This document shows positions 12,047 through 26,201 of a stretch of DNA of 26,849 nt, one piece after another. Position 1 is the stretch's first letter. The number at the start of each line of letters is the position of its first letter. The DNA comes from a virus. Location: IMG/VR virus record IMGVR_UViG_3300030329_006103, positions 1-26,849 of that record; one strand, 5' to 3'. The position numbers were made by a program, and so were the translations under genes. The notes beneath the pieces are model-generated. The model did not search any database, was not told the origin of the DNA, and saw only the letters and a list, made by a program, of their open reading frames with translations.

Positions 12047-12271
12047 TTACTCCTCAGAGTCTTCTGAGTCGCCATCGGCATCGAAAGTCTCTTCGATCTT
12101 AACGCCCTCAAAACTAACAACAGGAGGATTAACAACGTGCAACAAGGTTGAATCATTCTCATCGGTGGCCAAGTTAAAATTCTCCAACATCGGAACAATG
12201 TCACTCTGCTCCATTAAAGACTTTTGTAAAGTCATCATAATTGCGCCTAACGCTTGCTTACTTAATTTCAT
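12047..12271 (-). CDS. Small acidic protein of unknown function (74 aa)
   Basis: This 74-residue protein begins with a helical segment (KLSKQALGAIMMTLQKSLME) and ends in an acidic tail (DADGDSEDSEE). Its ATG overlaps the TGA of the dehydrogenase gene as ATGA, and AGGA lies eight bases upstream. It abuts the zinc-ribbon gene. A 67-residue frame on the same strand overlaps it but lacks the ATGA coupling, and I take it as spurious. The size, acidity and location just before a gp55-like gene would fit a small late-transcription cofactor such as T4 gp33. I see no diagnostic motif, so the function is unknown. Confidence 0.7.
   Translation of the reverse strand: MKLSKQALGAIMMTLQKSLMEQSDIVPMLENFNLATDENDSTLLHVVNPPVVSFEGVKIEETFDADGDSEDSEE
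12050..12055 (-). promoter_or_regulatory. Strong ribosome binding site for the zinc-ribbon gene
   Basis: On the minus strand GAGGAG is followed by TAA and then ATG. The two GAG codons encode the last two residues of the upstream acidic protein, the TAA is its stop, and the ATG starts the FmdB-type gene. The Shine-Dalgarno motif is therefore embedded in the upstream gene's 3' end, which supports both the start choice and coupled translation. Confidence 0.65.
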
Positions 12272-13131
12272 TTTGAATTCCTTTTCTTTTTTTTAGTGAC
12301 CGCACCTTCAATCTTAGTCCAGTCCAAATCATCTCTAACTTCTAAATTCTTGTTCCAAACAGCTTTCATAACTGTTGGCTCCACTTCATTTTCGTGAAAC
12401 ATTTCAATAAATGCATTCAAGTCTTTTGGAAAGCATTTCCCTCCGAAGCCAAGACTCCCGTCATGGCCTGGGACATCTATGTGGGAGTTTCCAATTCTTC
12501 CATCTGTAATAAAACCAAGCATGGCATCTTGCCAATTAACATTTAATTTGTCAGCACCTTGCCTCATTTCATTCATAAAGGATACCTTTGTAGCAAAAAA
12601 GCAGTTCGCCATATATTTGATAAACTGCGCGGTTGTAACATCTGTGTGGATAATTCTAACATATGGGAACCGAGTCCTCATTGCCATCTCAACTCGTTCA
12701 GTTAGTTCTTTTGTTCCACCTAAAATAACCCTGGATGAGTTAATAAAATCAAATCGGGCGGCGCGTTCTGTTAAGAACTCTGGGCTGAACACAATATTCA
12801 ACTCGGGATACTTATCAATATATCGTTCAACAGTACCCGGAATAACTGTAGATTTTACAACAAAAATATTGTCTTTTCGCTTATTTAACAAAGAGATTTG
12901 TTCGAAAACGCCATCCATGATTGATGTATCAATCTCGCCACCCAAGGCAGTCGTCATAGGCGTTGGAACAGAAACAAAGATGACATTGGATTCATTGATA
13001 GTGTCTCGCATATTGTGCGTTGACCTCGTTGGATCTACATCGTAAACTTTCACATCTGCATGCAAACTAAAGCCGGCAGCAATTGCGGAGCCAACAAATC
13101 CGTTTCCTATTATACCAATTTCTTCTTTCAT
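12268..13131 (-). CDS. Short UDP-sugar 6-dehydrogenase homologue (lacks C-terminal domain)
   Basis: The 287-residue protein has an N-terminal NAD-binding Rossmann motif (GIIGNGFVGSA, residues 6-16) and the SPEFLTE motif (116-122). It also has K171/N176 in the central helix and the catalytic cysteine C233 in GFGGKCFPKD. These belong to the UDP-glucose/GDP-mannose dehydrogenase family, which oxidises a nucleotide sugar to its uronic acid in two NAD-dependent steps. Typical members are 390-450 residues. Here the protein ends about 50 residues after the catalytic cysteine in a Lys-rich tail, so the C-terminal UDP-binding domain is missing. The nucleotide specificity, or even full activity, is therefore uncertain. 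It follows the SDR epimerase by one base, and AGGAT precedes its ATG. Confidence 0.8.
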   Translation of the reverse strand: MKEEIGIIGNGFVGSAIAAGFSLHADVKVYDVDPTRSTHNMRDTINESNVIFVSVPTPMTTALGGEIDTSIMDGVFEQISLLNKRKDNIFVVKSTVIPGTVERYIDKYPELNIVFSPEFLTERAARFDFINSSRVILGGTKELTERVEMAMRTRFPYVRIIHTDVTTAQFIKYMANCFFATKVSFMNEMRQGADKLNVNWQDAMLGFITDGRIGNSHIDVPGHDGSLGFGGKCFPKDLNAFIEMFHENEVEPTVMKAVWNKNLEVRDDLDWTKIEGAVTKKKKRNSK

Positions 13132-13132
13132 C

Positions 13133-14008
13133 TTATCCTACTTTTGTTCTCTCAAAACAGTCCTCAATACCGTCATAGATGTTCCAGTCGGGCGTCCACC
13201 CTAGCTCTTCTAGTGGTGTCATATCAGCCTTCGTTAAGCGAACATCTCCAGCGCGTTCTTCGACATAATCAAATTTTACATGAGGATGATGCTTTTGTAC
13301 AATATTTTTTATTTGATTCAAGGAGATATTGTCTCCGGTGCCTACATCAAAAAATTGGCCACAAAAATTCATATCGAAATTCATAGCAAATATGTTCGCA
13401 GAAACAACATCTAAGACATGAGACATATCTCTCCGCTGCTCTCCGTCTCCAGTAATATGAGGAGTGGTACCATCACGGACAGCTTTCATGTATGCCGCAA
13501 CTGCAGTTGCATATGGGCCAGATGCTTCCTGATCGTGAGAATAAACATTAAAATATCGAAGAGACACAGTGTCCATCGTGCCATAAAGAGCACTATACAT
13601 TCCCACTTCTAGCTCTGATGTGTATTTCTGTAATGCATATGGGCTGACTGGGCCGTTCCCGTTGCCCCGAACAGAAGATGAACTAGAATAAATAAACCTC
13701 TTTACTCCATTCTTGCGCGCGAAGTTTAAAGCAACACTTGTTGCCATCACGTTGTTTTGCATCGTCTCCACTGGCTGCTCTACACTATATGCAACCCTAG
13801 GGATACAAGCTAAATGAAACAAATACTCTGGTTTAAAATTAGTGTAATGTGGGTGAAACTTTCCATCCGTGTGTTCTTGCAGCTCATCTATTACATCTTT
13901 ACCATCCTGTAGATCAATACCTAAGACTTCGTGTCCTTGGCGCTCTAACTCTTGTACCAATTTTGTACCAATATAACCGCGGTGTCCGGTCACTAAACAT
14001 CTAGCCAT
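13133..14008 (-). CDS. Nucleotide-sugar epimerase, extended SDR family
   Basis: This 291-residue protein has the glycine-rich NAD motif TGHRGYIG (residues 7-14) and a Ser-rich strand FIYSSSSSV. The catalytic pair is Y124-x3-K128 (SPYALQKYTSE). Further family segments are RYFNVYS and GDGEQRRDMSHVLDVV, with RAGDVRLTKAD near the C-terminus. These are the landmarks of UDP-GlcNAc/UDP-glucose 4-epimerase-like enzymes and related UDP-glucuronate epimerases. It would interconvert nucleotide-sugar epimers in the cytoplasm and feed the glycosyltransferases around it. The precise substrate cannot be read from sequence. AGGGAG lies before the ATG at 14008. The first bases overlap the preceding GT2 gene by 8, and the dehydrogenase gene follows one base later. 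Confidence 0.85.
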   Translation of the reverse strand: MARCLVTGHRGYIGTKLVQELERQGHEVLGIDLQDGKDVIDELQEHTDGKFHPHYTNFKPEYLFHLACIPRVAYSVEQPVETMQNNVMATSVALNFARKNGVKRFIYSSSSSVRGNGNGPVSPYALQKYTSELEVGMYSALYGTMDTVSLRYFNVYSHDQEASGPYATAVAAYMKAVRDGTTPHITGDGEQRRDMSHVLDVVSANIFAMNFDMNFCGQFFDVGTGDNISLNQIKNIVQKHHPHVKFDYVEERAGDVRLTKADMTPLEELGWTPDWNIYDGIEDCFERTKVG

Positions 14009-14660
14009 CTTGTTCTCCCTTAAGTTTTGAATCGTAATAAGCTACTTTATCAACGTTGTTTGTTCTGTTTTCTTCATGTATTCTATACCGATATAGCGGA
14101 GCTTTTAAGTGATACATAGAATATTTTTTTTGGAACCTCTCCAATAGCTCATGGCCCTCGCGCATTTTGTATTCTTCATTGTAAAAATTTAACGAACACA
14201 AAGCTTCATAACTAAACATAACGCCACAAGCAATTGGTTCTGAAAAAGAATCATAATACCCTAGCTTCTGGCCAACATGATCTACTTTCATATAATCACA
14301 GCAAACCGCTTGATAGCTCCTGTTCATTTCCAACATGGTTGATAGCATGTATAGAAAGTGTCTAGAAACATAGTCATCTGAATCAACTCTAACAAAATAC
14401 TTGCCACGAGCAGTCTTTAAAATATTATTTAATGATGTGGGTAAGCCCATATTTTTCTTGTTCTGTATAAGCCTTACATTAAGTACATCACCCATTGCTG
14501 TACAAACATCTTGTAATTTTTGACTCGGCACTTCGTTGTCATCGACTAGAACAACCTCAAAATGGTCTTTGCTCAAGGTCTGGGATGCTAAACTTCGAAG
14601 GCATCGATACACCCAATCATCTTGTCGATAGCAACATATGCCAACTGTTACTTTATACAT
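14001..14660 (-). CDS. Glycosyltransferase family 2 (GT-A fold)
   Basis: This 219-residue protein opens directly in a GT2 domain: VTVGICCYRQDDWVYRCLRSL, then VVLVDDNE, NMGLPTSLN and the metal-binding DSDD at residues 93-96 (YFVRVDSDDYVS). GT2 enzymes transfer a sugar from a nucleotide donor, usually with inversion. Acceptor and donor cannot be predicted. It is short for the family, with little beyond the catalytic domain and no membrane segment, so it probably works in the host cytoplasm. It starts 3 bases after the first CMP-sugar synthetase gene and its end overlaps the epimerase gene by 8 bases. Confidence 0.85.
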   Translation of the reverse strand: MYKVTVGICCYRQDDWVYRCLRSLASQTLSKDHFEVVLVDDNEVPSQKLQDVCTAMGDVLNVRLIQNKKNMGLPTSLNNILKTARGKYFVRVDSDDYVSRHFLYMLSTMLEMNRSYQAVCCDYMKVDHVGQKLGYYDSFSEPIACGVMFSYEALCSLNFYNEEYKMREGHELLERFQKKYSMYHLKAPLYRYRIHEENRTNNVDKVAYYDSKLKGEQDG

Positions 14661-14663
14661 TCT

Positions 14664-15245
14664 TTAGAAATCCATCTTTTCTAGGGTGTTAATATCTTCG
14701 ATTGTGTGTACATCAATATAATCTGTAAGAACTGCACTTATGTACATTCCCAACCCTAGGCGGGATACACAATCTGTATTAAAAACTCTTATAGCGCCAT
14801 CAGTGAACAAAGTTTCCTTGTTAATTGACAAGCATTCCCAAACTTCTCCGTTTGAATGTGCTACTTTTTCAATAGCTTCGTCTATTTTACAAGCTTCAAT
14901 CTGTGGAGAGTTGGCCTGTAACATGCAAATATAGTCTACTTTTCCAGACTTCTCTATTTCCGACAATGCATGTTCTAAAACCTGTTGTTTTCCAACACTT
15001 TCTAAGGCTAGGCTATCCGGTCGATGAATAACATTAAACCCATAAAGTAAAGAAATATTAGCAATTTCCTCACTATTTGTTGAAATATAAGTCTCATTTA
15101 GATACTTTGACTGTTTTATTGCGTCCAAAGTCCAACATATAAGAGGTTTTTCCTTCAAAGGGTATATGTTTTTACCCTTTAGCCTACGCGAGTTGCCTTT
15201 AGCTGGAATAAAAGCGACTATTCTCACTAGCCTAAGCCCTTCCAT
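14664..15245 (-). CDS. neuA: CMP-acylneuraminate synthetase homologue (NeuA-like, first copy)
   Basis: This 193-residue protein begins with the nucleotide-binding loop VAFIPAKGNSRRLKGKN, typical of CMP-sugar synthetases (NeuA/KdsB superfamily). It continues through YISTNSEEI, LQANSP and a shortened TDGAIRVFN segment, ending in DVHTIEDI. Such enzymes activate nonulosonic acids with CTP. It is shorter than the usual 220-230 residues, mostly between the LQANSP and GAIRVF segments. I keep the ATG at 15245, which overlaps the previous gene by 19 bases. A GTG at 15227-15225 forms TAGTG with the previous stop and would start the protein at the family's usual first residues (RIVAFIPAKG), so it is an equally good start. 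Confidence 0.78.
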   Translation of the reverse strand: MEGLRLVRIVAFIPAKGNSRRLKGKNIYPLKEKPLICWTLDAIKQSKYLNETYISTNSEEIANISLLYGFNVIHRPDSLALESVGKQQVLEHALSEIEKSGKVDYICMLQANSPQIEACKIDEAIEKVAHSNGEVWECLSINKETLFTDGAIRVFNTDCVSRLGLGMYISAVLTDYIDVHTIEDINTLEKMDF

Positions 15246-15892
15246 GTGTTTCCGGCTGGGGTCCAGTGGTGGTCACACTGCAATTCAACATCATACAAAT
15301 ACGTGAAACCACGAGAAACAACCTTGTTAGCCCAATAGCGGTCTTCTTTACCAGAAAGTCTCTCATCAAATTTATTCTCTAATAGAACGCTTTTATCATA
15401 AAAACAAAAAGCATTGTGTAAAAAGTGTCTTTCCTCTGCATCAGACCACATGTTGACTACAGATTCATCTGTGAAGTGGGACCACACATACCGTTTTGTA
15501 ATCTTACGGCCCCTATATACGGGCGTCTGCTTTCCAAATACAGCGGCATGCTGTCTTAAGTTCGATTTAACTCGATCTAAATTAATGGGCCTTGTAATAA
15601 CGCTATGTGCAGATAAAACTAAGATTGTATCATTCGATGCAGCGCGAACTGCCATGTTAAGTGACCGCCCCGGAGAATAATTATCAATTTGCATTATTTT
15701 GATGTTTGAAAAACAGAATTCATTAACGATTTCCATAGATTGATCAATTGAGTTGTTATCAACAATTATGATCTCCGGATCATTAAACGTGTCCAAACAA
15801 GACTGGATCGCATAACCTATCCAGTTTTCTTCATTTCTATTTCGAATAATAATAGAAAGATTGTCAGCCATTGAACCTACCTGAGTATTCAT
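15227..15892 (-). CDS. Glycosyltransferase family 2, DxD-poor
   Basis: The GT2 domain begins LSIIIRNRNEENWIGYAIQS, followed by EIIIVDNNSIDQS, PGRSLNMAVRAA and a position normally occupied by DxD that here reads VLSAHS. The lack of an acidic DxD pair is seen in some GT2 branches, so activity is plausible but the metal site is unusual. C-terminal features include ERLSGKEDRYWANKV and a His pair (DHHW). The frame opens with a GTG at 15901. I chose the first ATG, at 15892, because GAGGG lies eight bases upstream. Another ATG at 15871 with AGG before it would reduce the overlap with the NeuB gene from 29 to 8 bases. Confidence 0.8.
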   Translation of the reverse strand: MNTQVGSMADNLSIIIRNRNEENWIGYAIQSCLDTFNDPEIIIVDNNSIDQSMEIVNEFCFSNIKIMQIDNYSPGRSLNMAVRAASNDTILVLSAHSVITRPINLDRVKSNLRQHAAVFGKQTPVYRGRKITKRYVWSHFTDESVVNMWSDAEERHFLHNAFCFYDKSVLLENKFDERLSGKEDRYWANKVVSRGFTYLYDVELQCDHHWTPAGNTWKGLG

Positions 15893-16667
15893 TTCTTGCA
15901 CCCTCTTCAGCCGGCTGATAGTCTAGACCATGATACTCATGCATCTGGTCAACCAGCTTAATAAAACTTGACAAATCACCTAACTCCTCGGGCAATATCG
16001 CAAATTTATTATCCCTGCCTGGAAGATCATGGTCTACTGTAAAGTGTTTCTCAACTACATTCAAACCATAAGCCAAAGCAACCTTTGCAGACTCAACACC
16101 CATAATATGATCGCTATAGCCAATTCGTGGACACAGTTCCTTCAAATCTGTCAACTTTGAAATGTTTGCCATGTTTGGCTCACATGGGTAGGATGATACA
16201 CAATGAAGTAAAACAAGCTCAGCTTTATTAATCCTAGGTACCATCTCCCTCAACTCTGCCCACTTTGATGTACCTGTGGACATATAAACCTTCTCAAAGT
16301 GCTCATTACAATAATCAACTAGCTCGACGTTCCTACACTCAAAGCTTGGAATTTTAACAGCATGAGTTTGGTTTAAACCGACTAACAACTCCGCATCAGG
16401 CACGCTAAATACTGAAGATAGAAATTTAATCCCATGCTTATCGCAAAGGTTAATCAAACTAACATGGTCGTCTGCAGACAGCTCTGCATTCTCGTAGATT
16501 TGGCGACGGCCATCTAGATTCCACTCACCATCTTTTAGTCTCGAAACAGACCAAGTTTGAAACTTAGCATACGTCGCACCATTTTCTGCAGCGGCGCGGA
16601 TCATAGTTTCTGCTAGTTCTAAATCTCCCATATGGTTCCAACCAATTTCAGCAATAATTTCTGTCAT
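15864..16667 (-). CDS. neuB: NeuB-type nonulosonate (sialic acid) synthase without SAF domain
   Basis: This 267-residue protein has the NeuB TIM-barrel signatures: AEIGWNHMGDLELAETMI near the N-terminus, then YAKFQTW, FLSSVFSV, KIPSFE, YMSTGTSKW, LLHCVSSYPC, IGYSDH and VVEKHFTVD followed by DNKFA. NeuB condenses phosphoenolpyruvate with an N-acylated hexosamine to give a nonulosonic acid. Full-length enzymes run to about 340 residues, with a C-terminal SAF (antifreeze-like) domain that helps bind substrate. Here the protein stops at EYSGRFNG and lacks it. Whether a partner replaces it is unknown. The start overlaps the dehydrogenase stop as ATGA, with GGAG upstream. No NeuC-type 2-epimerase is in the window, so the aminosugar precursor must come from elsewhere. 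Confidence 0.85.
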   Translation of the reverse strand: MTEIIAEIGWNHMGDLELAETMIRAAAENGATYAKFQTWSVSRLKDGEWNLDGRRQIYENAELSADDHVSLINLCDKHGIKFLSSVFSVPDAELLVGLNQTHAVKIPSFECRNVELVDYCNEHFEKVYMSTGTSKWAELREMVPRINKAELVLLHCVSSYPCEPNMANISKLTDLKELCPRIGYSDHIMGVESAKVALAYGLNVVEKHFTVDHDLPGRDNKFAILPEELGDLSSFIKLVDQMHEYHGLDYQPAEEGARNEYSGRFNG

Positions 16668-17596
16668 GTTAAATTCTCCAATTTGTTAATCGCTCCATTA
16701 TAAGCCAACTCTCTTGCGTCACTAGTCATTCCACCAATATGTGGAGTTACAATGATGTTTAGATCATCCATTCGTTGGATGATCGGGCTATCGTTAATAT
16801 TGTCAAATTCGTTTTCAACAACATCTGTAGCATAGCCGGCTAGTTTACCTGATTCTAACATAGATACAATATCTTTTTCATCAACAACTTCTCCGCGAGA
16901 GGTGTTAATCAAGTATACAGGAGATGTTATATTTTGCAATAGCTCTTTGTTAATAAAATGTCGCGTCTCATCTGTGACATGTACATGTAAAGAAACAACG
17001 TCGCATGTTTTAAACAAAGATTCCAACGACTGAGACTGCATATATCTAAATTTAGAACTCTTATAAGGATCATGTATATAAACGCCGGCGCCGAATGAGT
17101 CACAGTAGTGAGCCATCATTTCGCCTAGGCGGCCAAAGCCAACAATTCCAACTTTTAATGAATTAATTTGTCGGCCCAAAAAGGGCTCCCAGTTCCAGCC
17201 ACCATCTAATACAGACTGCTGTGCGCGGGGGACATTTCTCAATAACGATAACATAAGCCCAAAAGAGTGCTCAGCTGTAGATGTAATTTTCCTGAGTAAG
17301 TGATAATCAGTCGTTATGGAAAGCACAGTAATATCGTTACTTTCGCAGTATTTTTTGTCAATATGGTTCGTCCCAGTGGATGCTGTACATATAACAGACA
17401 CGCTAGAGGGCCCCAGAAGCTCTTTATCGAGCATAAACCCCTGCTTGTTAGGGTTGGTAAAGATTACGTCATAACCCTCTTGTAGAGCAACTGACAGGTC
17501 GTTTTTGTTAATATTTGGACAATATGTTACGCTGCCGCGGCTCTGGAGGTTTTCCATCATCGTGTCTGTGATTGGAGTTATGCATATAATTTTCAT
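16664..17596 (-). CDS. D-2-hydroxyacid dehydrogenase (phosphoglycerate dehydrogenase-like)
   Basis: This 310-residue protein has the NAD-binding motif VGIVGFGRLGEM (glycines at 153, 155 and 158), the substrate-binding arginine R234 in NTSRGEVVDE and H286 in TPHIGG. It also has the acidic ENEF segment near 261-264 and STAEHSFGLML in the middle. These define the D-isomer-specific 2-hydroxyacid dehydrogenases. The substrate is unknown, and a serine-pathway role is unlikely in this setting. Its place between NeuA and NeuB, linked on both sides by ATGA overlaps, suggests it acts on a 2-keto or 2-hydroxy intermediate of the nonulosonate route or makes a precursor. That is inference from context alone. 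Confidence 0.85.
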   Translation of the reverse strand: MKIICITPITDTMMENLQSRGSVTYCPNINKNDLSVALQEGYDVIFTNPNKQGFMLDKELLGPSSVSVICTASTGTNHIDKKYCESNDITVLSITTDYHLLRKITSTAEHSFGLMLSLLRNVPRAQQSVLDGGWNWEPFLGRQINSLKVGIVGFGRLGEMMAHYCDSFGAGVYIHDPYKSSKFRYMQSQSLESLFKTCDVVSLHVHVTDETRHFINKELLQNITSPVYLINTSRGEVVDEKDIVSMLESGKLAGYATDVVENEFDNINDSPIIQRMDDLNIIVTPHIGGMTSDARELAYNGAINKLENLT

Positions 17597-18270
17597 TTTA
17601 ATAAAATTCTCGCTAATTCTAAATCCCTAGGCTCATCAATGTTAATTGTGTTCTCTTCTGACATAATATGTGGTCGCGTGTCCGGACCTAAACGAACTTT
17701 GTGCTCCAAAAATGATTTCATAGTTGTTGCATAGATACTGCCATTGCGAACATACGCTGCTGGTGTCAAATCCTGCCGGCGGGACTCTGGTATTTCTGGA
17801 TAAAAGTCCATTAGCTTATCGTCCTTAATATATTTAACTCTAGAAGGGTGCTGGTCCCATATTCTAACCACCGACACAACAGAGTCTGCACCAGTATCAT
17901 AAAGCTTTTTTATTACGTTGTCAAGGTCTTCTGTGGTTTTTAATGGATTTGTTGCCATTACTTCAACCACATAGTCGTAATCTGGATGTTTTTTTGCCAC
18001 ATCTAAAAGTGCTGCAGCAGAAGTTGTAGTGTCTAAGGCTAAAGATGGATCTCTCATATGTACTGAGGCTCCACACAATTGTGCTACAATAGATATTTCT
18101 GTATCATCTGTCGACACGATATGCGCATCAACATACTTGCTTTTTTGTACTACTTCTGTTGTGTAGCCCAACAGAGGCTTTCCATTAATATCTATTATGT
18201 TTTTTCTTGGAATCTTTTTCGAGCCACCGCGGGCGAGGGTGACTGCTAAAACTTTTTTGTTGCCTATCAT
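17593..18270 (-). CDS. neuA: CMP-acylneuraminate synthetase (NeuA-like, second copy)
   Basis: This 225-residue protein has the typical NeuA length and motifs: LAVTLARGGSKKIPRKNI at the N-terminus, IVSTDDTEI, VEVMATNPL, and RQDLTPAAYVRNGSIYATT, which carries the NG-IY segment. It ends in NIDEPRDLELA. It should transfer CMP from CTP to a nonulosonic acid. It is more canonical than the copy at 14664-15245, and the two differ clearly at the N-terminal loop, so they may serve different sugars or have diverged after separate acquisition. Both ends carry ATGA overlaps, with the sialyltransferase-like gene before it and the dehydrogenase after it. The Shine-Dalgarno is weak, which fits translational coupling. 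Confidence 0.87.
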   Translation of the reverse strand: MIGNKKVLAVTLARGGSKKIPRKNIIDINGKPLLGYTTEVVQKSKYVDAHIVSTDDTEISIVAQLCGASVHMRDPSLALDTTTSAAALLDVAKKHPDYDYVVEVMATNPLKTTEDLDNVIKKLYDTGADSVVSVVRIWDQHPSRVKYIKDDKLMDFYPEIPESRRQDLTPAAYVRNGSIYATTMKSFLEHKVRLGPDTRPHIMSEENTINIDEPRDLELARILLK

Positions 18271-19043
18271 ACCAAATCATTTACACGCTTATTTATAATC
18301 TTTGTAATCTCTTTTGTTGGGGTGCCTTGCTTATGAAAGTTCATAATATTGTACAAAAATTCATCAACCCTTATTCTCCCCTGATTTTCTGGCAGATCAA
18401 AACAATCTATCAACATTGATAATTCTAGCACGCCGTGATGTTTTCCAACTATCGGTTGATTGTGAGTTGGGTTTTTATTCTTTTGAAAAATGTGACCCCC
18501 GCCGTGATACATTGTTATGCCACTAATAAAAACCTCGGCGGCATCACTAGCAATTGCTTCCATGATCGCTACTGTTCCTGTTTGCGGCCAATATCTTGTA
18601 TCTGAAGTTCCTAGTGATTGCTGGTATTGTACACCAAACTCTCCGCAAGAATACTCTGTATATGTTGTTCCGCAAGCTAAGTCTTTCGAAAAGAAGTGAT
18701 TTGAAATTTTATTATCAGGGATCCTATAATGATCAATGCCTGATTTTTTAAAGTATTCCAAATACTCCTGCATCATATTGTTGACAATTAAGAACCTGTT
18801 GCCATAAACAACGTCTGTCTTGCTGCCAACATGCTTGACATATTTTCCATCACAGTGTTCTGCCAAAGGTAGGATATCTACCCACTTCATTCGAATAACC
18901 ACATCATAATCATCAATTAAGGTGCCGGCATCATAAGCCAACATATGTTTTGATGGGCCGACAATCGCCACCCGCTTACCACTAAGATAATCATTGTATT
19001 CTTTATTCGGCTTAATCTTTTCTAAAAAATTTTGAATTGTCAT
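18267..19043 (-). CDS. GT29-like sialyltransferase homologue
   Basis: This 258-residue protein carries patterns like the sialylmotifs of GT29. A motif-L-like segment lies at residues 24-53 (RVAIVGPSKHM, then GTLIDDYDVVIRMKW). A motif-S-like segment lies at 153-179 (PQTGTVAIMEAIASDAAEVF, then ISGITMY). Possible catalytic histidines follow at H180, H184 and H202/H203 (GKHHGVLELSML). GT29 enzymes move sialic acid from CMP-sialic acid to an acceptor. Such proteins are best known in animals, but divergent bacterial and viral relatives exist. The context of NeuA and NeuB immediately downstream fits. The match is by eye and divergent, so a related but different sugar transferase is possible. The ATG overlaps the preceding stop as ATGA and has GGAG upstream. 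Confidence 0.7.
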   Translation of the reverse strand: MTIQNFLEKIKPNKEYNDYLSGKRVAIVGPSKHMLAYDAGTLIDDYDVVIRMKWVDILPLAEHCDGKYVKHVGSKTDVVYGNRFLIVNNMMQEYLEYFKKSGIDHYRIPDNKISNHFFSKDLACGTTYTEYSCGEFGVQYQQSLGTSDTRYWPQTGTVAIMEAIASDAAEVFISGITMYHGGGHIFQKNKNPTHNQPIVGKHHGVLELSMLIDCFDLPENQGRIRVDEFLYNIMNFHKQGTPTKEITKIINKRVNDLV

Positions 19044-19732
19044 TCTATAATCTCCAAATTTTGCAATGGAGGCAGATTCGCATTTGTAATCATTTTAAAA
19101 TTGATGTCTGGATGCTTTTTTATTACCTCTACAAAATGTTCTACCATTTGAGTATTTCTCATTTTTAACTGCTGATTTTTCAATGGTGCAATCCACGGTC
19201 GTCGGAAAAGATAATCGTTTTGATAAAAATCTAAACCAGCTATCCATAAGTTTTTAGGTTTTAAAATATGAGCTGCGTAAATAATTGATAGTACACCAGT
19301 ATTTGGATGCTTCTCCGCGTAGTTGGAGTCCCCGGGGCGCATATAGTATTTGTCCGTAAAGAAACTGTTATATTCTAACAGTTCCTCTGGGAGTGTGTGA
19401 CAGGTTAGGTTATAACTTTCGTACAAACCTTTCATGTCGGATAGGCGCTGATCTAGTTGGGTTTTTGTAAATTGAATGTGCTTAATATTTAATTCTTCAT
19501 AATGTTCTTTTAAAAGCGGTGCTGTCTCTAGTCTATTGACAAAATGAGCAACGTTCTTACCAGAGAGCAAGGGGGCTACTAAGGTCCACTCAGAGTCATT
19601 GTTGTCCGCATTGCGATCAAAATTATTAACCATGTAGCAATCTTGATAGTTATCAACTATCTTTGGTAACCTCGCTACACTAGCCCCCTTCAGAACAATA
19701 CCAAAATCATTCAAGCCTTTTTCAAAATACAT
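19040..19732 (-). CDS. GT42-like (Cst-type) sialyltransferase homologue
   Basis: This 230-residue protein resembles Campylobacter Cst-type (GT42) transferases. GIVLKGASVARLP at about residues 11-23 takes the place of the family GNGPSL nucleotide loop. TGVLSIIYAAHILKPKNLWI is followed by AGLDFYQNDYL (166-174 region), close to the Cst-II core containing GIDFYQN. By hand alignment the position of the Cst-II catalytic histidine (H188, in HSKNT) is K190 in KMRNT, so the residue appears absent and catalysis is uncertain. H199 lies nearby. It leads the ATGA-coupled chain and is 6 bases after the FkbM gene, with GAGGA before its ATG. A DUF115-like glycosyltransferase is an alternative label. Confidence 0.68.
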   Translation of the reverse strand: MYFEKGLNDFGIVLKGASVARLPKIVDNYQDCYMVNNFDRNADNNDSEWTLVAPLLSGKNVAHFVNRLETAPLLKEHYEELNIKHIQFTKTQLDQRLSDMKGLYESYNLTCHTLPEELLEYNSFFTDKYYMRPGDSNYAEKHPNTGVLSIIYAAHILKPKNLWIAGLDFYQNDYLFRRPWIAPLKNQQLKMRNTQMVEHFVEVIKKHPDINFKMITNANLPPLQNLEIIE

Positions 19733-19738
19733 TTAAAG

Positions 19739-20587
19739 CTATTCCTCGCGTGAAAGCATGAAACTTCTAACGATCTTCTTACTGCGACCCTCTTGGTGCT
19801 CCCTGCAGGCAAACTCTAACAAGTGCTCATTTGATATATCGTCATATACTCCACGATGAAATCCATCTGTTTCTACAGTACGGGCAGGTGTGTATCCGGC
19901 CTCTGCGAACAAGGTAGGTTGCGGAACTGGAGTTGTTACAACATACTTTGGGCTAAATCCTATTTCGAAATACTTTTTTAGGATTGCTTCAAAATCATTC
20001 TCTTCATTATAAGTTGCTGGGTGGACCTCCACCAAGAAATGAGTTGTACCTCTATTTTTGGTAAAATAGTCTAAGCCTCCTTCAAAGATCTTAACTTCCC
20101 CGCCTTCAACATCCATCTTAAGAAAGTTTGGATATTCACGACTAGATAAGAAAGTGTTAAGACAGAATGAATCAACTGTAATCTTATGGGTGCTGTTCTT
20201 GTGCTTAGTAATACTGCTCAAGTTTGGAGCACTAGCCTGCCAGAAATCTAACTGACCATCTGTATCTGATATTGCACACTGCGTAACCTCGCATATAGAG
20301 GTGTAATTATTTTGGCGTATGTTGCTTTGCAGAAGCCCTAGGTTGTTTGGATCGGGTTCAATAGCATACACCCTGCCCGTTTCACCCACCTTGTCTAGCA
20401 TAAAAAGGGTTGTATAACCAATATTGCTTCCTAGGTCCACGCATGTCATTCCCTCTTCAACGGTTTCGCGCAAAAGAGACATAAATGCCAATTCTCTCTC
20501 ACCAACGTGATAGAGAACATTAGAAATGCCGCCATCAGCGACATTCAAATTCATGATAAATTTATCAACTTGTTTTTGTAGTAACAT
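19739..20587 (-). CDS. FkbM-family methyltransferase
   Basis: This 282-residue protein contains a class I SAM-binding motif, CVDLGSNIGYTTLFML, at about residues 49-64. It also has VYAIEPDPNNLGLLQSNI, and the FkbM-type FLKMDVEGGEVKIFEGGLDY at about 155-175, where the acidic pair is part of the family signature. FkbM-type enzymes O-methylate sugars or polyketides. Next to glycosyltransferases it most likely methylates a glycan sugar. The start is ATG at 20587 with AGGA five bases upstream. It lies 7 bases after the GT-B gene and 6 before the GT42-like gene. The C-terminal 60 residues extend beyond the core domain. Confidence 0.85.
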   Translation of the reverse strand: MLLQKQVDKFIMNLNVADGGISNVLYHVGERELAFMSLLRETVEEGMTCVDLGSNIGYTTLFMLDKVGETGRVYAIEPDPNNLGLLQSNIRQNNYTSICEVTQCAISDTDGQLDFWQASAPNLSSITKHKNSTHKITVDSFCLNTFLSSREYPNFLKMDVEGGEVKIFEGGLDYFTKNRGTTHFLVEVHPATYNEENDFEAILKKYFEIGFSPKYVVTTPVPQPTLFAEAGYTPARTVETDGFHRGVYDDISNEHLLEFACREHQEGRSKKIVRSFMLSREE

Positions 20588-20594
20588 AATAATC

Positions 20595-21503
20595 CTATTG
20601 TAAAGTTTTTTGTAAAAAGTTTAAGTAATTTTTTGCAACAAAGGTCATATCAATATTTGTATTGTATGTGTTCTTTGTTACATTATCAAACTTAATATCT
20701 GGTATTCGTGATGTGCTGACGGGCTCTAAGTCCCACGGCACATCTTCAACTACCAAAGCATTTGGGCCGGCGACCTCTTTAGTTCCAGCCAGCGAAGAAC
20801 AAATAATCTGACACCCACTAGCTCTTGCGTCAACAACAACGTTTGGACAAGCGTCATATCTTGCTAAGTGTATAAAATACTTAGACCTCTTATATAAAGA
20901 AAACAGTATGTCAACAGGTAAGCGCCCCACATAGAACACTCTGTTGTGCTTTACCACCTCATCGTCGGGGGGGTTACCGGCAACTACTAAGCAATCGTTC
21001 TCTCCAGAAAAATTAATAAAATATTCAACATTTTGCCTTAATCGCTTCCAAGGTCGCCAACGGCTGGCACAGGTCCAAACTGTATCAAACTTATCAAGGA
21101 GCGAATCTTGAAGAGGTTCTATCTCATCAATCAACTCATAGTCTGCGCCATTATGAATGACAGTATGGTTATCATGCGCACCTAAATATTTAAAACATAA
21201 GTCTCTGCAGTATTCAGACTGGAATATAACACCTGCAGAATTCTCGTATGTTTTCTGTAAATTTGAATTCATGAGTTTGTTATCAGTATCAATATCAAAA
21301 TAGATACCATCTAATCTTTGAACTAATGGCAAATTAGAATTTTGAATTGATTCAATAAATGACAGCTGCACATCCAAACTTGATTCATCAAGATTAGTTG
21401 TGCAAGTCGCACCAAGACGACTAATATACTTGTTTAGTTTTGTACCAAAGTGGTTTGGCCCACTAGTTGAATTCAGATTTACATTATCTAAAAAGATTTT
21501 CAT
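20595..21503 (-). CDS. GT-B glycosyltransferase (GT4-like)
   Basis: This 302-residue protein opens MKIFLDNVNLNSTSGPNHFG, with a Gly-rich donor-side loop. The middle contains GVIFQSEYCRDL, VIHNGAD and a WRPWKRL segment with the basic residues used to bind a nucleotide phosphate. The C-terminal motif is RYDACPNVVVDARASGC, a variant of the GT4 E-x7-E region in which the first acidic residue is Asp. The same YD-CP-VV-A-GC pattern occurs at the C-terminus of the 694-residue enzyme upstream, which suggests a shared subfamily. Typical retaining GT4 enzymes use UDP- or GDP-sugars. It is short (usual length 350-400). The start overlaps the methyltransferase stop as ATGA. Confidence 0.8.
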   Translation of the reverse strand: MKIFLDNVNLNSTSGPNHFGTKLNKYISRLGATCTTNLDESSLDVQLSFIESIQNSNLPLVQRLDGIYFDIDTDNKLMNSNLQKTYENSAGVIFQSEYCRDLCFKYLGAHDNHTVIHNGADYELIDEIEPLQDSLLDKFDTVWTCASRWRPWKRLRQNVEYFINFSGENDCLVVAGNPPDDEVVKHNRVFYVGRLPVDILFSLYKRSKYFIHLARYDACPNVVVDARASGCQIICSSLAGTKEVAGPNALVVEDVPWDLEPVSTSRIPDIKFDNVTKNTYNTNIDMTFVAKNYLNFLQKTLQ

Positions 21504-22120
21504 TTTCTAGTTGCAACAACGATCTGACATTCATTTACTGTGCTGACCTCTTCGCCTTTTGTTAATACTTGTTCTTGTATGTTAAATGTTTCAGAAATGT
21601 ACTGTTCAAATTCATCCTCTGTCCACTCTCTAACGTGATACTGGTTATGAGGAGGTCCATCCCAGGTAAATCCTTTTTGTAATAACTGCATGTTATCCCT
21701 CTCCGGAGTGGAAACTACAAACGTACCAAAATTTAATTTTTGTACAAACTCTAATAATTGATCCGGATCTAAAAGGTGTTCAATAACATCAGAGCAAATA
21801 ACCAAATCAAAACGACCACCGGGAGGGTTGTCGAAGTCAGAGAGTTGAAAGTGATAGTGTGGGTAAGTTTCTTTGAGCCAACTTAAGTTTGGCTCTAGTT
21901 CTAATCCTAAAAAAATTTTATCACTAAAATATTTTATCAGTTTATAGCCAGATCCGCATCCAATATCTAAAACAGTCATGCAGTTATTGCGCTCACAAAC
22001 TTCGCGAGCCTTTGCGTATACTCGATCTTGAAACTTGTCTCCAGATCCTATTTGTATATTCTGGATATATTCGTCTCTCGTAACATATCCTTCTTTAATG
22101 CAGTACGTCTTTGCGGTCAT
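21500..22120 (-). CDS. Class I SAM-dependent methyltransferase
   Basis: This 206-residue protein has SAM motif I TVLDIGCGSGYKL at about residues 49-61, followed by LGLELEPN and, after HFQLSDFDN, DLVICSDVIEHLLDPDQLL, the motif IV/post-IV region of the Methyltransf_11/UbiG-like group. It probably methylates a sugar or sugar-nucleotide. Its ATG at 22120 overlaps the end of the GT2 gene by 26 bases, with AGG four bases upstream, and its TGA forms ATGA with the next gene. It is a second methyltransferase of a different family from the FkbM protein, so the predicted glycan may carry more than one methyl group. Confidence 0.85.
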   Translation of the reverse strand: MTAKTYCIKEGYVTRDEYIQNIQIGSGDKFQDRVYAKAREVCERNNCMTVLDIGCGSGYKLIKYFSDKIFLGLELEPNLSWLKETYPHYHFQLSDFDNPPGGRFDLVICSDVIEHLLDPDQLLEFVQKLNFGTFVVSTPERDNMQLLQKGFTWDGPPHNQYHVREWTEDEFEQYISETFNIQEQVLTKGEEVSTVNECQIVVATRK

Positions 22121-22847
22121 ATGCCTTTTTACCTCTCAAATAATCATTTGTTTTTAATTGCAGATCTCTGCGCGCTTTGTGGACATTAAGCGGATTGGTC
22201 AAGTTATACACATAAAGTATCTCATCGATATACTTGGCGCGGTCACCCGACATCTCTAACATAGGGTACATAAATGCTTTGTCAATAGTTGTTTTAAAGA
22301 AATCCCCATTCCAATCTAAGAGATCTTCTTTCTTGATATTCTTCCAAAGCTTGTATTTAAATGTTCTTAAATGGGATGCTCGCCAACGATCAGTACGATA
22401 TGTGTTACTTTGAATAACCGCAGGAGAGTAGGCAGAAGCTTCAATTCCCTTCATACCAGTTGGAAACTCCATGTAGCTTCCGTAGGTCATCCAGCATTGT
22501 TCCTTCTCGTAGAAGTCCTTAAGGTAAGTTAAAACGTTCTTTGTTGCTAACCAGTCATCCCCGTCTACACTGAGAATAATATCTTCATCTTGTGGCTTAG
22601 CGTGTTCTATACCCTCGTATATTCTTCCTAGGGAATATTTCTTATCCGAATTCTTAAGAATTGCGAATCTGTCATCGTCCCCAACAAGCTCCTCTAAGAT
22701 CTCAACAGTTTTGTCAGTGGAGGCGTCATCAACAAACACACATTGAAAGTTTGTATAATTTTGATTCTTGACGCTCAACGCTGTTCTTTTGATCCAGCTT
22801 TCAACATTGTACATCGATGTAACAATTTTAAAATGAGGATCTGTCAT
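22095..22847 (-). CDS. Glycosyltransferase family 2 (GT-A fold)
   Basis: This 250-residue protein starts with a GT2 catalytic domain: FKIVTSMYNVESWIKRTALS, then CVFVDDASTDKTVEILEEL and ILSVDGDDWLATKNVL, with the DGDD metal-binding cluster near residue 95. A WRASHLRTFKYKLWKNI segment and YVYNLTNPLNVHK follow, the latter like the acceptor side of many cell-surface GT2 enzymes. Donor and acceptor are unknown. It lacks membrane segments. It starts one base after the double GT-B gene, and its end overlaps the methyltransferase gene by 26 bases. AGGAAG lies somewhat far (about 13 bases) from the ATG. Confidence 0.87.
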   Translation of the reverse strand: MTDPHFKIVTSMYNVESWIKRTALSVKNQNYTNFQCVFVDDASTDKTVEILEELVGDDDRFAILKNSDKKYSLGRIYEGIEHAKPQDEDIILSVDGDDWLATKNVLTYLKDFYEKEQCWMTYGSYMEFPTGMKGIEASAYSPAVIQSNTYRTDRWRASHLRTFKYKLWKNIKKEDLLDWNGDFFKTTIDKAFMYPMLEMSGDRAKYIDEILYVYNLTNPLNVHKARRDLQLKTNDYLRGKKAYDRKDVLH

Positions 22848-22848
22848 A

Positions 22849-24933
22849 TTAAACTGAAACTTCCTTCCAGAATGTTGGCACCACTGATCTTAAGTGTGCT
22901 TCTATTGCTTCAATGTCATCTGTAGCGAACCACTTTTCATCAGCATGCAAAACGTTCTCGTTTAACTGCAGTTCACAACCCAACAACTTCGCTTCAATAA
23001 CCATTCGTGGACAAGTATCATACCCTGGCGGGAGTGCGCAGAGGCCGCGGGCCTGTGCTAAACAAGCAAGGGATTCCTTATAAGACTTACCATGTAGCTC
23101 AAATACTTGTTTGTTGTTTTCTTCACACCACTTCTTCGAAGCCTGATGTCCCTTAACCCACGAAGGCGAAGAACTGACAACCCACACATCTACTTTCTTA
23201 TTAAGAAATTCCTTGCGCAATGCTTGAATATAATTTAATACATCGTCCGTAAAGACCGCAGACATGATCCTAGTGTCCTTCTTTTTTAGATCCAGAGCAC
23301 TTAAGTGATGTGCGCGTTGGTTCTCGGAACGGAAAAACAACAACTGTGCGTTATCACAGAACAATTTAATCAACTGACCTGAGTCCTTTTCGACACAAAC
23401 GCAGTCCTCTCCACCATTGAAGATCTGACACAGCTGTGGTAATCTATGTTCACAGTATTTATAATCTGATTCTATAAAGTAATACTTCAGGTTTTCTGCG
23501 ATCTTTGGAACGAGGGATTTATCCATCGCTGTAAAATTAGAGAAAATCCAAGTTTTATCTTTTAATGTATCTATTAAGCTTTCACTAACATCTGAGGCGT
23601 TTAGTTTTAGATGTTTTCCGGGGGCTGTATCTATAACAGCCTGAAAACTTAACTCTGCGCCGCCAGGGGCCTGATCAGCAAATCTGTCACTAACAAAAAC
23701 ATAATCACAGTCTAAATCAATCTTCTCGTCACAAACAGCATTAGCAAATTGCTCATACTTCTGTTCTTCTGTGAAATTTTCTAAGATCCACGATTGTAGT
23801 TTTCGTGCATTGCTCTTAAATCTTCCATGACTTTTATAAACCTCGCGCATGCGCATCTTTGCGCTGCCTTCTCGCGGGTAACACCATTCAGACCTTTTCT
23901 CAATAACACCTTCCCAGCGAGCTTCTTTTTGAATACGTTTTACATCAAAGTCTACCTTTGCATAAAGTGGCTTAACTTTAACTTTTTTGTTCTTCTCTTT
24001 AACCGGAGCTGATAAGAAATCAACGTGTCCGGACCAACCAGCGGTTATAACTGGAAGACCATAATACGCGGCTTCAAAAATTGGCAAGCCGTAGCCTTCA
24101 CCGTGCGTCAGTGATATTAGTGCTTTTATTTTAGGATGATTGTAAAGACCAGCCAGCTCATCTTCTTTCATTGTGCCGTGGATCATATAAACCTTGCACT
24201 GCCTATTTTCATACTCACTCAAAAGCTCTTGTAATCTTTTTTCGCAGTGGTCTCTGTCCATAATAGAGTCATTTGCGGCATTAGTCTTAATAACCAAGCC
24301 AACATCTCTATCAATAAACTCTTCAACAAACCAACGTATTGTATTTTCTAGGTTTTTTCTAACACCCCACTGAGCTAAAACTAAAAAGTTAAAATCATTT
24401 TCTAGTTCTAGATCTAGTTTCGCCGGCTTAACGTTTCGTACTGGATAGTGTACCACCTCTACTGGTGTTTCACACCTGTAACCCTTTACTACTTGGCCAG
24501 TTTCTTTATTTTGTACATCATATACTGTGTTTAGGAATCCATCCTTAGAGTGTTCTGAAATTGTTATGATCTTATCAACTACTTCAGTCTTTTCAATCCA
24601 TGCTGGTGAAATTTGATTTGTTTCTATCCCGGCAGTATATCCTATGTTCACTGGTGCTAATTTTTCCCACTCATTTGGTATTGTAACCTGTAATGACATG
24701 TCGAACTTGCCGCCTGCTGCAACATATTCTACACTTTTAGCCAAACAAGCATCAATCCAAGTGCGCTCTTCGTTATCATCAAAAATCCACCCAGTTTGAC
24801 CCCACGGAATATTTTGTAGATAAATATCATATTTTTCTTCTTGACTGCGAAGGGAGCGTAGTGCAAACCGTGTTTGCTCTCCATACCCAGAACGAGATAA
24901 GGCTGGGCCTTTAACTAATATCTTTTTTCTCAT
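22849..24933 (-). CDS. Bipartite glycosyltransferase with two GT-B domains
   Basis: I chose the ATG at 24933, not the one at 24990. It forms ATGA with the upstream stop, has AAGGA six bases before it, and the protein then begins MRKKILVKGPALSRSGYG, a normal GT-B start. The result is 694 residues. The first GT-B (about 1-410) has SGYGEQTRFALR, VVHYPV, VLAQWGVRKNLENTIRWF, and HGEGYGLPIFEAAYYGLPV at about 278-295, the E-x7-E donor site. A second GT-B (about 430-694) begins DYVFVSDRFADQAPGGAELS and ends with GYDTCPRMVIEAKLLGC at 637-653. Two GT domains in one chain suggest sequential addition of two sugars. Function beyond glycosyl transfer is unknown. Confidence 0.82.
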   Translation of the reverse strand: MRKKILVKGPALSRSGYGEQTRFALRSLRSQEEKYDIYLQNIPWGQTGWIFDDNEERTWIDACLAKSVEYVAAGGKFDMSLQVTIPNEWEKLAPVNIGYTAGIETNQISPAWIEKTEVVDKIITISEHSKDGFLNTVYDVQNKETGQVVKGYRCETPVEVVHYPVRNVKPAKLDLELENDFNFLVLAQWGVRKNLENTIRWFVEEFIDRDVGLVIKTNAANDSIMDRDHCEKRLQELLSEYENRQCKVYMIHGTMKEDELAGLYNHPKIKALISLTHGEGYGLPIFEAAYYGLPVITAGWSGHVDFLSAPVKEKNKKVKVKPLYAKVDFDVKRIQKEARWEGVIEKRSEWCYPREGSAKMRMREVYKSHGRFKSNARKLQSWILENFTEEQKYEQFANAVCDEKIDLDCDYVFVSDRFADQAPGGAELSFQAVIDTAPGKHLKLNASDVSESLIDTLKDKTWIFSNFTAMDKSLVPKIAENLKYYFIESDYKYCEHRLPQLCQIFNGGEDCVCVEKDSGQLIKLFCDNAQLLFFRSENQRAHHLSALDLKKKDTRIMSAVFTDDVLNYIQALRKEFLNKKVDVWVVSSSPSWVKGHQASKKWCEENNKQVFELHGKSYKESLACLAQARGLCALPPGYDTCPRMVIEAKLLGCELQLNENVLHADEKWFATDDIEAIEAHLRSVVPTFWKEVSV

Positions 24934-26201
24934 TTTATTTCCTTCATCTCCCAAGACTGGTAATTCTTTCGCGTAGCCCAGGAGCCACATTCCTCATGCA
25001 CTTTGGTAAAAAGGTTGTCCCAATTGGTTCTATATTTTTCAAAAGAATAATTTGTTAGTACGTGATTTCTACCAGCAGCACCCATTTTCGCTCTTTCTTC
25101 TTTAGTCATATTATAAAACTTAACCATTGCATCTAAAAAGTCCTCTTTTGATACACGATCTTCATAGATGTATGGCACCTCCTGGGAGCCAATTATAGCT
25201 TTTGCTGCAGGCTCAAGACCAAAACCAAACCAGTTCTCTCCGTCAGTAACTTGCTCCTGTAGGCCACCAGTCATTGTCACAATAATTGGCACTTCGCAGG
25301 CTAAAGACTCTAAAGTCGCTAAACCAAAACCTTCCGCATCGGCAATATTAATAGTACAATCACACATGTTGTAAGCCAAGGCTAAGTTTTCTGCTGGCAC
25401 CTTTTGTCTGGAGAAAACCAACTGACCATTGTTTAACCCAAGCTCGCGGGAAATAGCTTCCAAGTCTTGACCATGTACATCGTCAGTTTCTGTGTGCATT
25501 ATAAGCGCAGCATTATTGTGACCAACAATGTCTAGAAATTCTTTAAACCACCAGACTACAGTGCCAGACTGTTTCCTTCTAGCATTTCGATTGTTCCAAA
25601 AAAACAAAACTCTGTCCCGGTTTGGCTCGTATTCAAGTGGTATACTAGTTTCTCTGAATTGTTCAATGACCTCCGGATCGAGCTTTTTAAAGATTTCGGT
25701 GTTCACAGTGTGTGGTAAGTATGACGATTCTACATCCGGTGAAACATTTTGCACAACCTCATATGTAAGCTTTGATATGCACGCTATGTTGTCATTAGAG
25801 TCGTAGAAACTTTTATTAAAATTAGGATAGGGCCTATTATCCCAAACGTGGTAATAGACCATCGGCACGTTTGCTCTAATCTCATTTTCAATCTGCCAAA
25901 GCCAGCCCCAAAACCTAGGGTCTGTCATAAACCATAAAACGTCTGGCTTCTCTGTCCAGATTACCGATCTAATAGAATCTTGATCTCCATAACCATCAAC
26001 TGGATATATAATCCAATCATCGCCAAACTCTTCAGTCCTCGTAGGTCTATAATCGTGATGTTTGATTGCTCCACCAAAACTTACAAACTGATATTTACCA
26101 GTTTTAAGCATTTCCTCGATCATATATCGAGTCTGAGTACCGACACCCGATGGAGATAAAGGGTGATCGCTCAAAGTAAAAATCTTAATTTTTTTGTCCA
26201 T
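24930..26201 (-). CDS. GT-B glycosyltransferase (GT4 family)
   Basis: This 423-residue protein has a GT4 architecture. The N-terminal domain opens FTLSDHPLSPSGVGTQTRYM, which has the donor-side Gly loop. The linker region has YLPHTVNTEIF. The C-terminal domain has FFWNNRNARRKQ, with basic residues for the nucleotide phosphate, and DAEGFGLATLESLACEVPII with the E-x7-E motif. A C-terminal helix (about 350-385) contains MTKEERAKMGAAGRNHV, which is usual for GT4. It transfers a sugar from a nucleotide donor with retention. The target is unknown. It opens the sugar island directly after the nuclease gene (8-base gap), with AAGGA five bases before the ATG. It could also act on DNA or protein, but no evidence favours that. 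Confidence 0.85.
   Translation of the reverse strand: MDKKIKIFTLSDHPLSPSGVGTQTRYMIEEMLKTGKYQFVSFGGAIKHHDYRPTRTEEFGDDWIIYPVDGYGDQDSIRSVIWTEKPDVLWFMTDPRFWGWLWQIENEIRANVPMVYYHVWDNRPYPNFNKSFYDSNDNIACISKLTYEVVQNVSPDVESSYLPHTVNTEIFKKLDPEVIEQFRETSIPLEYEPNRDRVLFFWNNRNARRKQSGTVVWWFKEFLDIVGHNNAALIMHTETDDVHGQDLEAISRELGLNNGQLVFSRQKVPAENLALAYNMCDCTINIADAEGFGLATLESLACEVPIIVTMTGGLQEQVTDGENWFGFGLEPAAKAIIGSQEVPYIYEDRVSKEDFLDAMVKFYNMTKEERAKMGAAGRNHVLTNYSFEKYRTNWDNLFTKVHEECGSWATRKNYQSWEMKEIK
24939..24944 (-). promoter_or_regulatory. Ribosome binding site fixing the start of the double GT-B gene
   Basis: On the minus strand AAGGAA stands a few bases before the ATG at 24933, within the final codons of the upstream glycosyltransferase gene. 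The same ATG overlaps that gene's TGA as ATGA. Both facts favour this start over the ATG 57 bases upstream. Confidence 0.6.

Follow-up and report, generated by a model that had tools for sequence, protein, structure and literature searches.

What does a phage make with genes for a sialic-acid-type synthase, and which neighboring genes belong with them? This question is raised by a 26,849-nucleotide stretch (the window) of IMG/VR virus record IMGVR_UViG_3300030329_006103, which is 56,099 bases long. Five consecutive genes in the window encode two sialyltransferase-like proteins (SiaT1 and SiaT2), a predicted cytidylyltransferase (NeuA1), a D-2-hydroxyacid dehydrogenase (DHDH), and a NeuB-family synthase. 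A first-pass annotation described them as a phage-borne unit, translated in fixed ratio, for synthesis and transfer of a nine-carbon, sialic-acid-like sugar. The five reading frames are indeed open, with order and coordinates exact, on the minus strand, as are all genes of interest here. The phage setting is borne out by T4-like features of the record, namely a baseplate wedge gene, a late sigma factor gene, and PhoH. The earlier interpretation as a whole is partly supported.

The unit that recurs is not the set of five genes, but NeuA, DHDH, NeuB, and a family 2 glycosyltransferase termed GT2b. The product of this module is probably a cytidine monophosphate (CMP)-activated 3-deoxy-ulosonic acid that differs from classical sialic acid. 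The explanation that we favor, and consider reasonably likely, is that the locus is a T4-like phage glycan cassette built around these four genes, with a NeuB that lacks the SAF domain.

NeuB proteins without a SAF domain

Scans of viral and genome collections produced 156 NeuB loci. Four without a NeuB-labeled open reading frame and three that were truncated were dropped, and the remaining 149 were reduced to 127 by removal at 90% identity or more. The genome scan contributed its best 80 loci, and the search patterns were derived from short NeuBs; the set is therefore a sample and not a census. NeuB lengths are bimodal, with 76 short proteins (250-300 residues; 38 viral, 38 cellular), 45 long proteins, and six of fewer than 250 residues. 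Some of the cellular contigs may be phage fragments (locus L024 is only 11.9 kb).

The window NeuB is a member of the NeuB, or nonulosonate synthase, family (PF03102, 177.7 bits against a cut-off of 22.1), as the first-pass annotation had said. It lacks the classical two-domain architecture, in which a SAF (antifreeze-like) domain follows at the C terminus. Pfam detects SAF in none of the 76 short NeuBs versus 41 of 43 long ones (two 803-residue fusions excluded), and ten phage records of 76-185 kb gave no SAF match. Because all 76 short NeuBs end within nine residues of the end of the window protein in the alignment, the short form is not a truncation artifact. The window protein falls under the cut-offs of the NCBIfam models for classical neuraminic, legionaminic, and pseudaminic acid synthases, TIGR03569 (182.1 versus 399.65 bits) and TIGR03586 (149.3 versus 340.25 bits), although a SAF-less protein cannot score fully on models that are 329 and 327 positions long.

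All 76 short NeuBs have K35, K105, G132, Y160, S185, H187, H208, and D219 without exception, and all of these but G132 count among the conserved barrel residues of the family. K35, K105, G132, S185, H187, and H208 are among those invariant across short and long NeuBs alike, and presumably at least part of this set is catalytic. A motif specific to the short type, GxWDxDGRxxIY, occupies positions 47-58. Each of its named residues is found in 70-74 of the 76 proteins, and the window NeuB has Asn at the first Asp. Other class-specific residues include 216-222 and G263-R264, and the short type has its own arginines at 54, 218, and 264. Its C-terminal tail carries a conserved GR(F/W). Short NeuB residues 48-58 align with residues 72-83 of Neisseria meningitidis NeuB, and one study assigns residues 70-85 of that enzyme to contact with C4-C6 of the sugar (PMC7371886). 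The sugar-binding segment is changed, and the catalytic residues are retained.

Further differences lie elsewhere in the protein. An Arg-Pro pair near the C terminus is kept in more than 90% of long NeuBs, and the region that holds it is absent from short ones. One alignment column has Gly as its most frequent residue in long NeuBs (24 of 42) and Phe in short ones (34 of 76). At column 109, Gly is outside the five commonest residues of the short type, which together cover 70 of 76 proteins. A tree made by a quick method has a branch (SH-aLRT 88; 99 for a 73-row core) with all 76 short NeuBs and the protein of locus L137 on the same side. Short NeuBs are essentially one clade.

Short NeuBs share the phosphoenolpyruvate-condensing barrel core and the invariant residues with SAF-containing nonulosonate synthases (N. 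meningitidis NeuB/SiaC; structures 1xuu, 8h2c, and 1vli). They differ from these in lacking the C-terminal SAF domain and in having a replaced sugar-contact segment and C-terminal tail. The solved structure that best matches the short NeuB profile is 6ncs (7.8e-52), whose deposited chain of 290 residues may not be the full protein, and which does not carry the GxWDxDGRxxIY motif.

A second minimal NeuB clade, of ~228-243 residues, occurs in phages (L154-L159 and L169-L174) and is separate from the 267-residue type. Genes of the Epimerase_2 family are found near NeuB in all six of L154-L159.

Genes associated with short NeuBs

DHDH genes reside within 4 kb of 52 of the 76 short NeuBs, one of the 45 long NeuBs, and none of the six very short ones. 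The single long NeuB with DHDH is that of L137, which falls in the short clade. By source, 34 of 38 viral loci with a short NeuB show the association, as do 18 of 38 cellular ones. The GT2b family shows a similar pattern (51 of 76 short versus 0 of 45 long within 4 kb), and GT2b is the next gene downstream in 47 of the 76 short-NeuB loci. The proposed five-gene unit therefore stops too early, because the GT2b family is the commonest downstream neighbor of short NeuB. By comparison, NeuA genes are near both types (58 of 76 short, 29 of 45 long), as are SDR genes, which served as a control (43 of 76 versus 22 of 45).

Fisher tests of short against long NeuBs give P values of 2e-14 for DHDH and 2e-15 for GT2b, which overstate independence because the short NeuBs are one clade. 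Rearrangement and lineage spread make a better argument for linkage. The 52 DHDH loci show 15 different strings of core genes, many of them partial. Complete sets are arranged in four different orders (17, 8, 6, and 3 loci), four further loci have a set with a duplicate, and the core genes are on one strand in 50 of 52 loci. The link between NeuB and DHDH thus outlives rearrangement. Besides phages, the lineages concerned are, going by record titles, SAR11, SAR86, Prochlorococcus, Bacteroidetes, Desulfobacterales, and Omnitrophota.

Genes that accompany SAF-containing nonulosonate synthases, which include epimerases, acetyltransferases, and aminotransferases, are less frequent near short NeuBs than near long ones. 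Hexapeptide acetyltransferases are near 3 of 76 short versus 21 of 44 long NeuBs, nucleotidyl (NTP) transferases with CBS near 8 of 76 versus 24 of 44, and DegT proteins near 11 of 76 versus 22 of 44. For Epimerase_2, a wider iterative profile gives 14 of 76 versus 23 of 44. Initial clusters had found this family near only 3 of 76 short NeuBs, and the wider count weakens any claim that the hexosamine route is strictly absent.

An enolase-superfamily, dehydratase-like (MR_MLE) gene was considered as a further marker of short NeuBs and was rejected (7 of 76 versus 0 of 44, P only 0.046). In bacterial locus L031 (7986-11622), genes for NeuB, an MR_MLE enolase-like enzyme, DHDH, and a class II aldolase are consecutive, which hints at sugar-acid chemistry.

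Predicted pathway and product

NeuA1 belongs to the NeuA/CTP_transf_3 family (PF02348, 90.2 bits against a cut-off of 22.6), again in keeping with the first-pass annotation. Among solved structures it comes closest to CMP-sialate synthetases (9t4z, 6e-31; 6ifd, 2e-26; also 1qwj and 1eyr), and it scores under the PseF equivalog cut-off (137.6 versus 205.7 bits). NeuA1 also matches models of KdsB weakly, as might be expected if the module made an eight-carbon acid of the 3-deoxy-D-manno-octulosonic acid (Kdo) type. However, the synthase is of the NeuB family, and the best KdsB structure (1e-5) is far more distant from NeuA1 than are the CMP-sialate synthetases, so that a Kdo-type product seems quite improbable.

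DHDH has the NAD-binding domain of D-2-hydroxyacid dehydrogenases, the GxGxxG motif, and conserved Arg and His residues, and the expected Glu was not identified. Residues G153, G155, G158, R234, and H286 are kept in at least 95% of a set comprising the window protein and 96 relatives; we take the Arg and His to be in the active site.

From these assignments we infer an order of reactions, a product, a role for DHDH, and a target. NeuB would condense phosphoenolpyruvate with an aldose to give a 3-deoxy-2-ulosonic acid, as is typical of its family, and NeuA1 would convert this acid into a CMP-sugar. DHDH, given its linkage to NeuB, may perform a dedicated redox step on an α-hydroxy or α-keto acid that produces the substrate of NeuB or else a substituent. 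GT2b would transfer the sugar, as would SiaT1 and SiaT2, whose folds are modeled and which may have been added in the lineage of the window as CMP-sugar transferases. The decorated glycan might be on the host envelope or on the virion. The logic of synthesis plus transfer proposed originally is supported. By contrast, nothing points to a nine-carbon product, given the missing SAF domain and the distinctive sugar-site residues. These features, together with arginines 54, 218, and 264, suggest that the sugar is probably not classical sialic acid derived from N-acetylmannosamine (ManNAc).

Several observations weigh against the favored explanation. NeuA1 is closest to CMP-sialate synthetases, and 6ncs, the solved chain nearest to the short NeuB profile, was deposited as an N-acetylneuraminic acid synthetase. 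DHDH is absent within 4 kb in 24 of the 76 short-NeuB loci, mostly cellular ones (20 of 38), some of which have short flanks. In L169 and L170, DHDH accompanies a NeuB of the other clade. Because short NeuBs are essentially one clade, the linkage counts should not be read as independent trials. Finally, an Epimerase_2-family gene is within 6 kb of 14 of the 76 short NeuBs, 12 of them viral (of 38), and NeuB could use a hexosamine substrate at those loci.

Alternatively, host ManNAc or a related hexosamine might be the substrate of the short NeuB, and the five genes might simply serve to sialylate something with canonical sialic (or legionaminic or pseudaminic) acid. The families of NeuB and NeuA, the two sialyltransferase folds, and the viral Epimerase_2 neighbors are all compatible with this pathway, but the absence of SAF and its Arg-Pro, the replaced sugar-site segment, and the Phe in place of Gly make it unlikely. 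Also, neither a SAF match nor an Epimerase_2 gene is found in the L002 record (100 kb, with genes identical to those of the window), although this record could be incomplete and ManNAc could come from the host.

We return to a product other than classical sialic acid. In a broader form, which we hold tentatively, a SAF-less NeuB lineage with a new acceptor site, a dedicated DHDH, and its own GT2 glycosyltransferase would constitute a separate and so far undescribed CMP-ulosonic acid pathway leading to a new acidic surface sugar, sometimes with the help of a mandelate-racemase-type sugar-acid enzyme. This pathway would be common to marine bacteria and T4-like phages, and some phages would deploy its product by using enzymes with sialyltransferase folds.

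Neither sialic acid synthesis nor the two transferase folds are new. Reads of neuB from viromes were reported in 2013, in a table of functions that had yet to be described from complete viral genomes (PMC3877843). That table gives no gene context or structure, whereas the type of the viral gene and its partners are presented here. Among the papers listed in searches of open-licence literature, none describes this module or links a NeuB that lacks SAF to a 2-hydroxyacid dehydrogenase. Viral neuB can now be assigned to a separate enzyme clade that lacks SAF, has recurring partners, and is also present in SAR11, Prochlorococcus, SAR86, and other lineages. The link between DHDH and NeuB amounts to a concrete biochemical prediction. 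A new product would mean that abundant ocean microbes bear an acidic sugar not yet described, over which phage and host may be in conflict.

Sialyltransferase-like proteins

The calls of GT42-like and GT29-like transferases agree with the modeled folds. SiaT1 has no match to Pfam (PF06002 included) at E values up to 1, nor to PHROG or NCBIfam, and a profile search of solved structures found nothing useful. Its AF2 model (pLDDT 79.5) has Campylobacter jejuni CstII as best Foldseek match (1ro8_A, probability 1.00, E 1.3e-3), with none at E of 0.001 or less. Alignment by VIA to CstII gives Z 11.8 and a root-mean-square deviation (rmsd) of 4.2 over 195 aligned residues. Ten structures have Z of at least 8.9, nine of which are sialyltransferases and one a kinase-like HPPK (8sd5, 9.1); all others are at 5.2 or below. 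SiaT1 thus shares the fold of CstII at ~16% identity, and is best described as GT42-like in fold and not as a member by sequence, since no Pfam family matches it.

SiaT2 matches PF00777 with 26.3 bits against a cut-off of 23, over residues 4-93 only. Its AF2 model is weak (pLDDT 61.7, from four sequences). With this model, mammalian sialyltransferases nevertheless fill the first 21 Foldseek rows, and VIA aligns 192 residues to ST6Gal1 (6qvs_B) with Z 10.1 and rmsd 4.2. Of 28 VIA rows with Z of at least 7.6, 24 are sialyltransferases, two are HPPK, and two are SteA. An H-X4-E pattern at 202-207, which we take to be a sialylmotif, is kept in four of four aligned rows. The SiaT2 profile matches all eight bacterial GT29 loci searched, in the motif-L part. 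The modeled fold and the motif would place SiaT2 in GT29. It shares fold and a sialyl-motif-L-like stretch with mammalian ST6Gal1, ST3Gal1, and ST6GalNAc2, but is phage-borne and only ~12-20% identical to them. A single-sequence search of solved structures gave one match, which was judged to be due to chance.

Eleven phage contigs, counting the window's own kind, carry homologs of SiaT1, and the GT29 gene is found in seven contigs. PF00777 is rare in sampled bacteria (4 of 194 genomes of one phylum and 4 of 299 of another). The sialyltransferase-like genes are additions to the module in a few phage lineages.

Gene order and overlaps in related phages

The genes of L002 are 100% identical to those of the window, and L003-L006 keep the whole gene order. 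The five-gene order holds only among these very close relatives. Beyond L002-L006, this and the limited distributions of the GT29 and GT42 genes, compared with that of DHDH, lead us to reject the five genes as a natural unit. L007 is without SiaT2. In L169 and L170, SiaT1, SiaT2, NeuA1, and DHDH are kept, and the NeuB slot is filled by a 228-residue NeuB of the other clade that adjoins SiaT2. A sulfotransferase-like protein (PF13469, weak) lies between SiaT1 and the 228-residue NeuB in L169 (8668-9618). In L172 (9402-11174), a 590-residue NeuB-NeuA fusion adjoins DHDH and directly follows the 228-residue NeuB.

At each of four junctions (19040-19043, 18267-18270, 17593-17596, and 16664-16667), an ATG and a TGA share four nucleotides as ATGA, exactly as annotated. 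Such overlaps are common here, at 7 of the 27 junctions of the window. A run of at least four arises in 4.2% of shuffles in which seven are placed among 27 (P = 0.042), a borderline and post hoc result. All four overlaps are retained in L003-L006, where the five proteins are 79-89% identical, even though silent changes between the window and L003 have reached or nearly reached saturation. However, the junctions of L007 are a 2-nucleotide gap, a 4-nucleotide overlap, and an 8-nucleotide overlap. The case for the overlaps as a special signal is thus weakened, and the proposed coupling of translation in a fixed ratio depends on a type of junction that is frequent here and is not retained beyond close relatives.

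In a comparison of eight window genes with those of L003, pN is 0.06-0.14 and pS is 0.73-0.88. Because silent sites are at or near saturation and amino-acid changes are few, the proteins are under selection. The same comparison, the open frames with conserved catalytic residues, and the recurrence in many phage contigs make it extremely improbable that the genes are passive or decaying host cargo, even though cellular relatives exist.

Among ten phage records, Gp23 is found in seven and not in the three shortest (L002, L006, and L009). Only three records of a phage collection match the window NeuB, the nearest at ~30% identity, and SiaT1 and SiaT2 have no match in that collection.

The sugars might instead modify phage DNA. 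T4 glucosylates hydroxymethylcytosine, and the cassette has many glycosyltransferases in a T4-like phage. The dCMP hydroxymethylases belong to the thymidylate-synthase family, but a gene of this family is absent from seven of the ten phage records searched, including those of L002, L006, L169, and L173 (two of which are 172 and 185 kb). The search leaves DNA modification unsupported and very improbable.

Layout of the sugar island

The features described above and their neighbors are listed in Table 1. The sugar island is bordered by a PD-(D/E)XK nuclease gene and, on the other side, by three small genes that are followed by the late sigma and baseplate genes. The cassette likewise reaches the sigma gene in L003-L007, L169, L170, L172, and L174.

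Table 1. Predicted genes and regions of the phage cassette, in window coordinates
Feature	Position	Strand	Basis
SiaT1, GT42-type (CstII-like) sialyltransferase fold, 230 residues	19040..19732	-	AF2 model, Foldseek, VIA
SiaT2, GT29-type sialyltransferase, 258 residues	18267..19043	-	PF00777 and fold
NeuA1, CMP-ulosonate cytidylyltransferase, 225 residues	17593..18270	-	PF02348, 2e-25
DHDH, D-2-hydroxyacid dehydrogenase, 310 residues	16664..17596	-	PF02826, 2e-48
NeuB without SAF domain, 267 residues	15864..16667	-	PF03102, 3e-52
GT2b, GT2 glycosyltransferase paired with SAF-less NeuB	15227..15871	-	PF00535, 1e-15; longer reading frame from GTG 15901
NeuA2, second short CTP-transferase, 187-193 residues (ATG 15245 or GTG 15227)	14664..15227 (to 15245)	-	PF02348, 4e-19
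GT2c glycosyltransferase	14001..14660	-	PF00535, 1e-18
Extended SDR (nucleotide-sugar epimerase/dehydratase-like)	13133..14008	-	PF01370, 3e-39; phrog_540
Short UDP-sugar dehydrogenase-like protein, 287 residues	12268..13131	-	PF00984, 5e-22; PF03721, 6e-21
Sugar island, ~14 kb (glycosyltransferase, methyltransferase, and nucleotide-sugar genes)	12268..26201	-	Gene annotation, relatives

The likely start of GT2b is ATG 15871, which gives an 8-nucleotide overlap with NeuB. NeuA2 resembles only the N-terminal part of CTP-transferases: its PF02348 match covers positions 2-120 of a 217-position profile, and its residues 3-121 match NeuA structures. The cluster of such short NeuA2-type proteins comprises 28 NeuB neighbors of median length 183 residues, and it is represented at 18 viral short-NeuB loci and at none of the cellular ones.

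The PF03721 match of the UDP-sugar dehydrogenase-like protein begins only at profile position 65, and the protein matches no C-terminal domain. Similarly short proteins of this kind recur among related phages. At window positions 22849-24990 is a 713-residue glycosyltransferase-like protein with a group 1 stretch at residues ~248-321, whose called start overlaps the upstream GT4 gene by 61 nucleotides.

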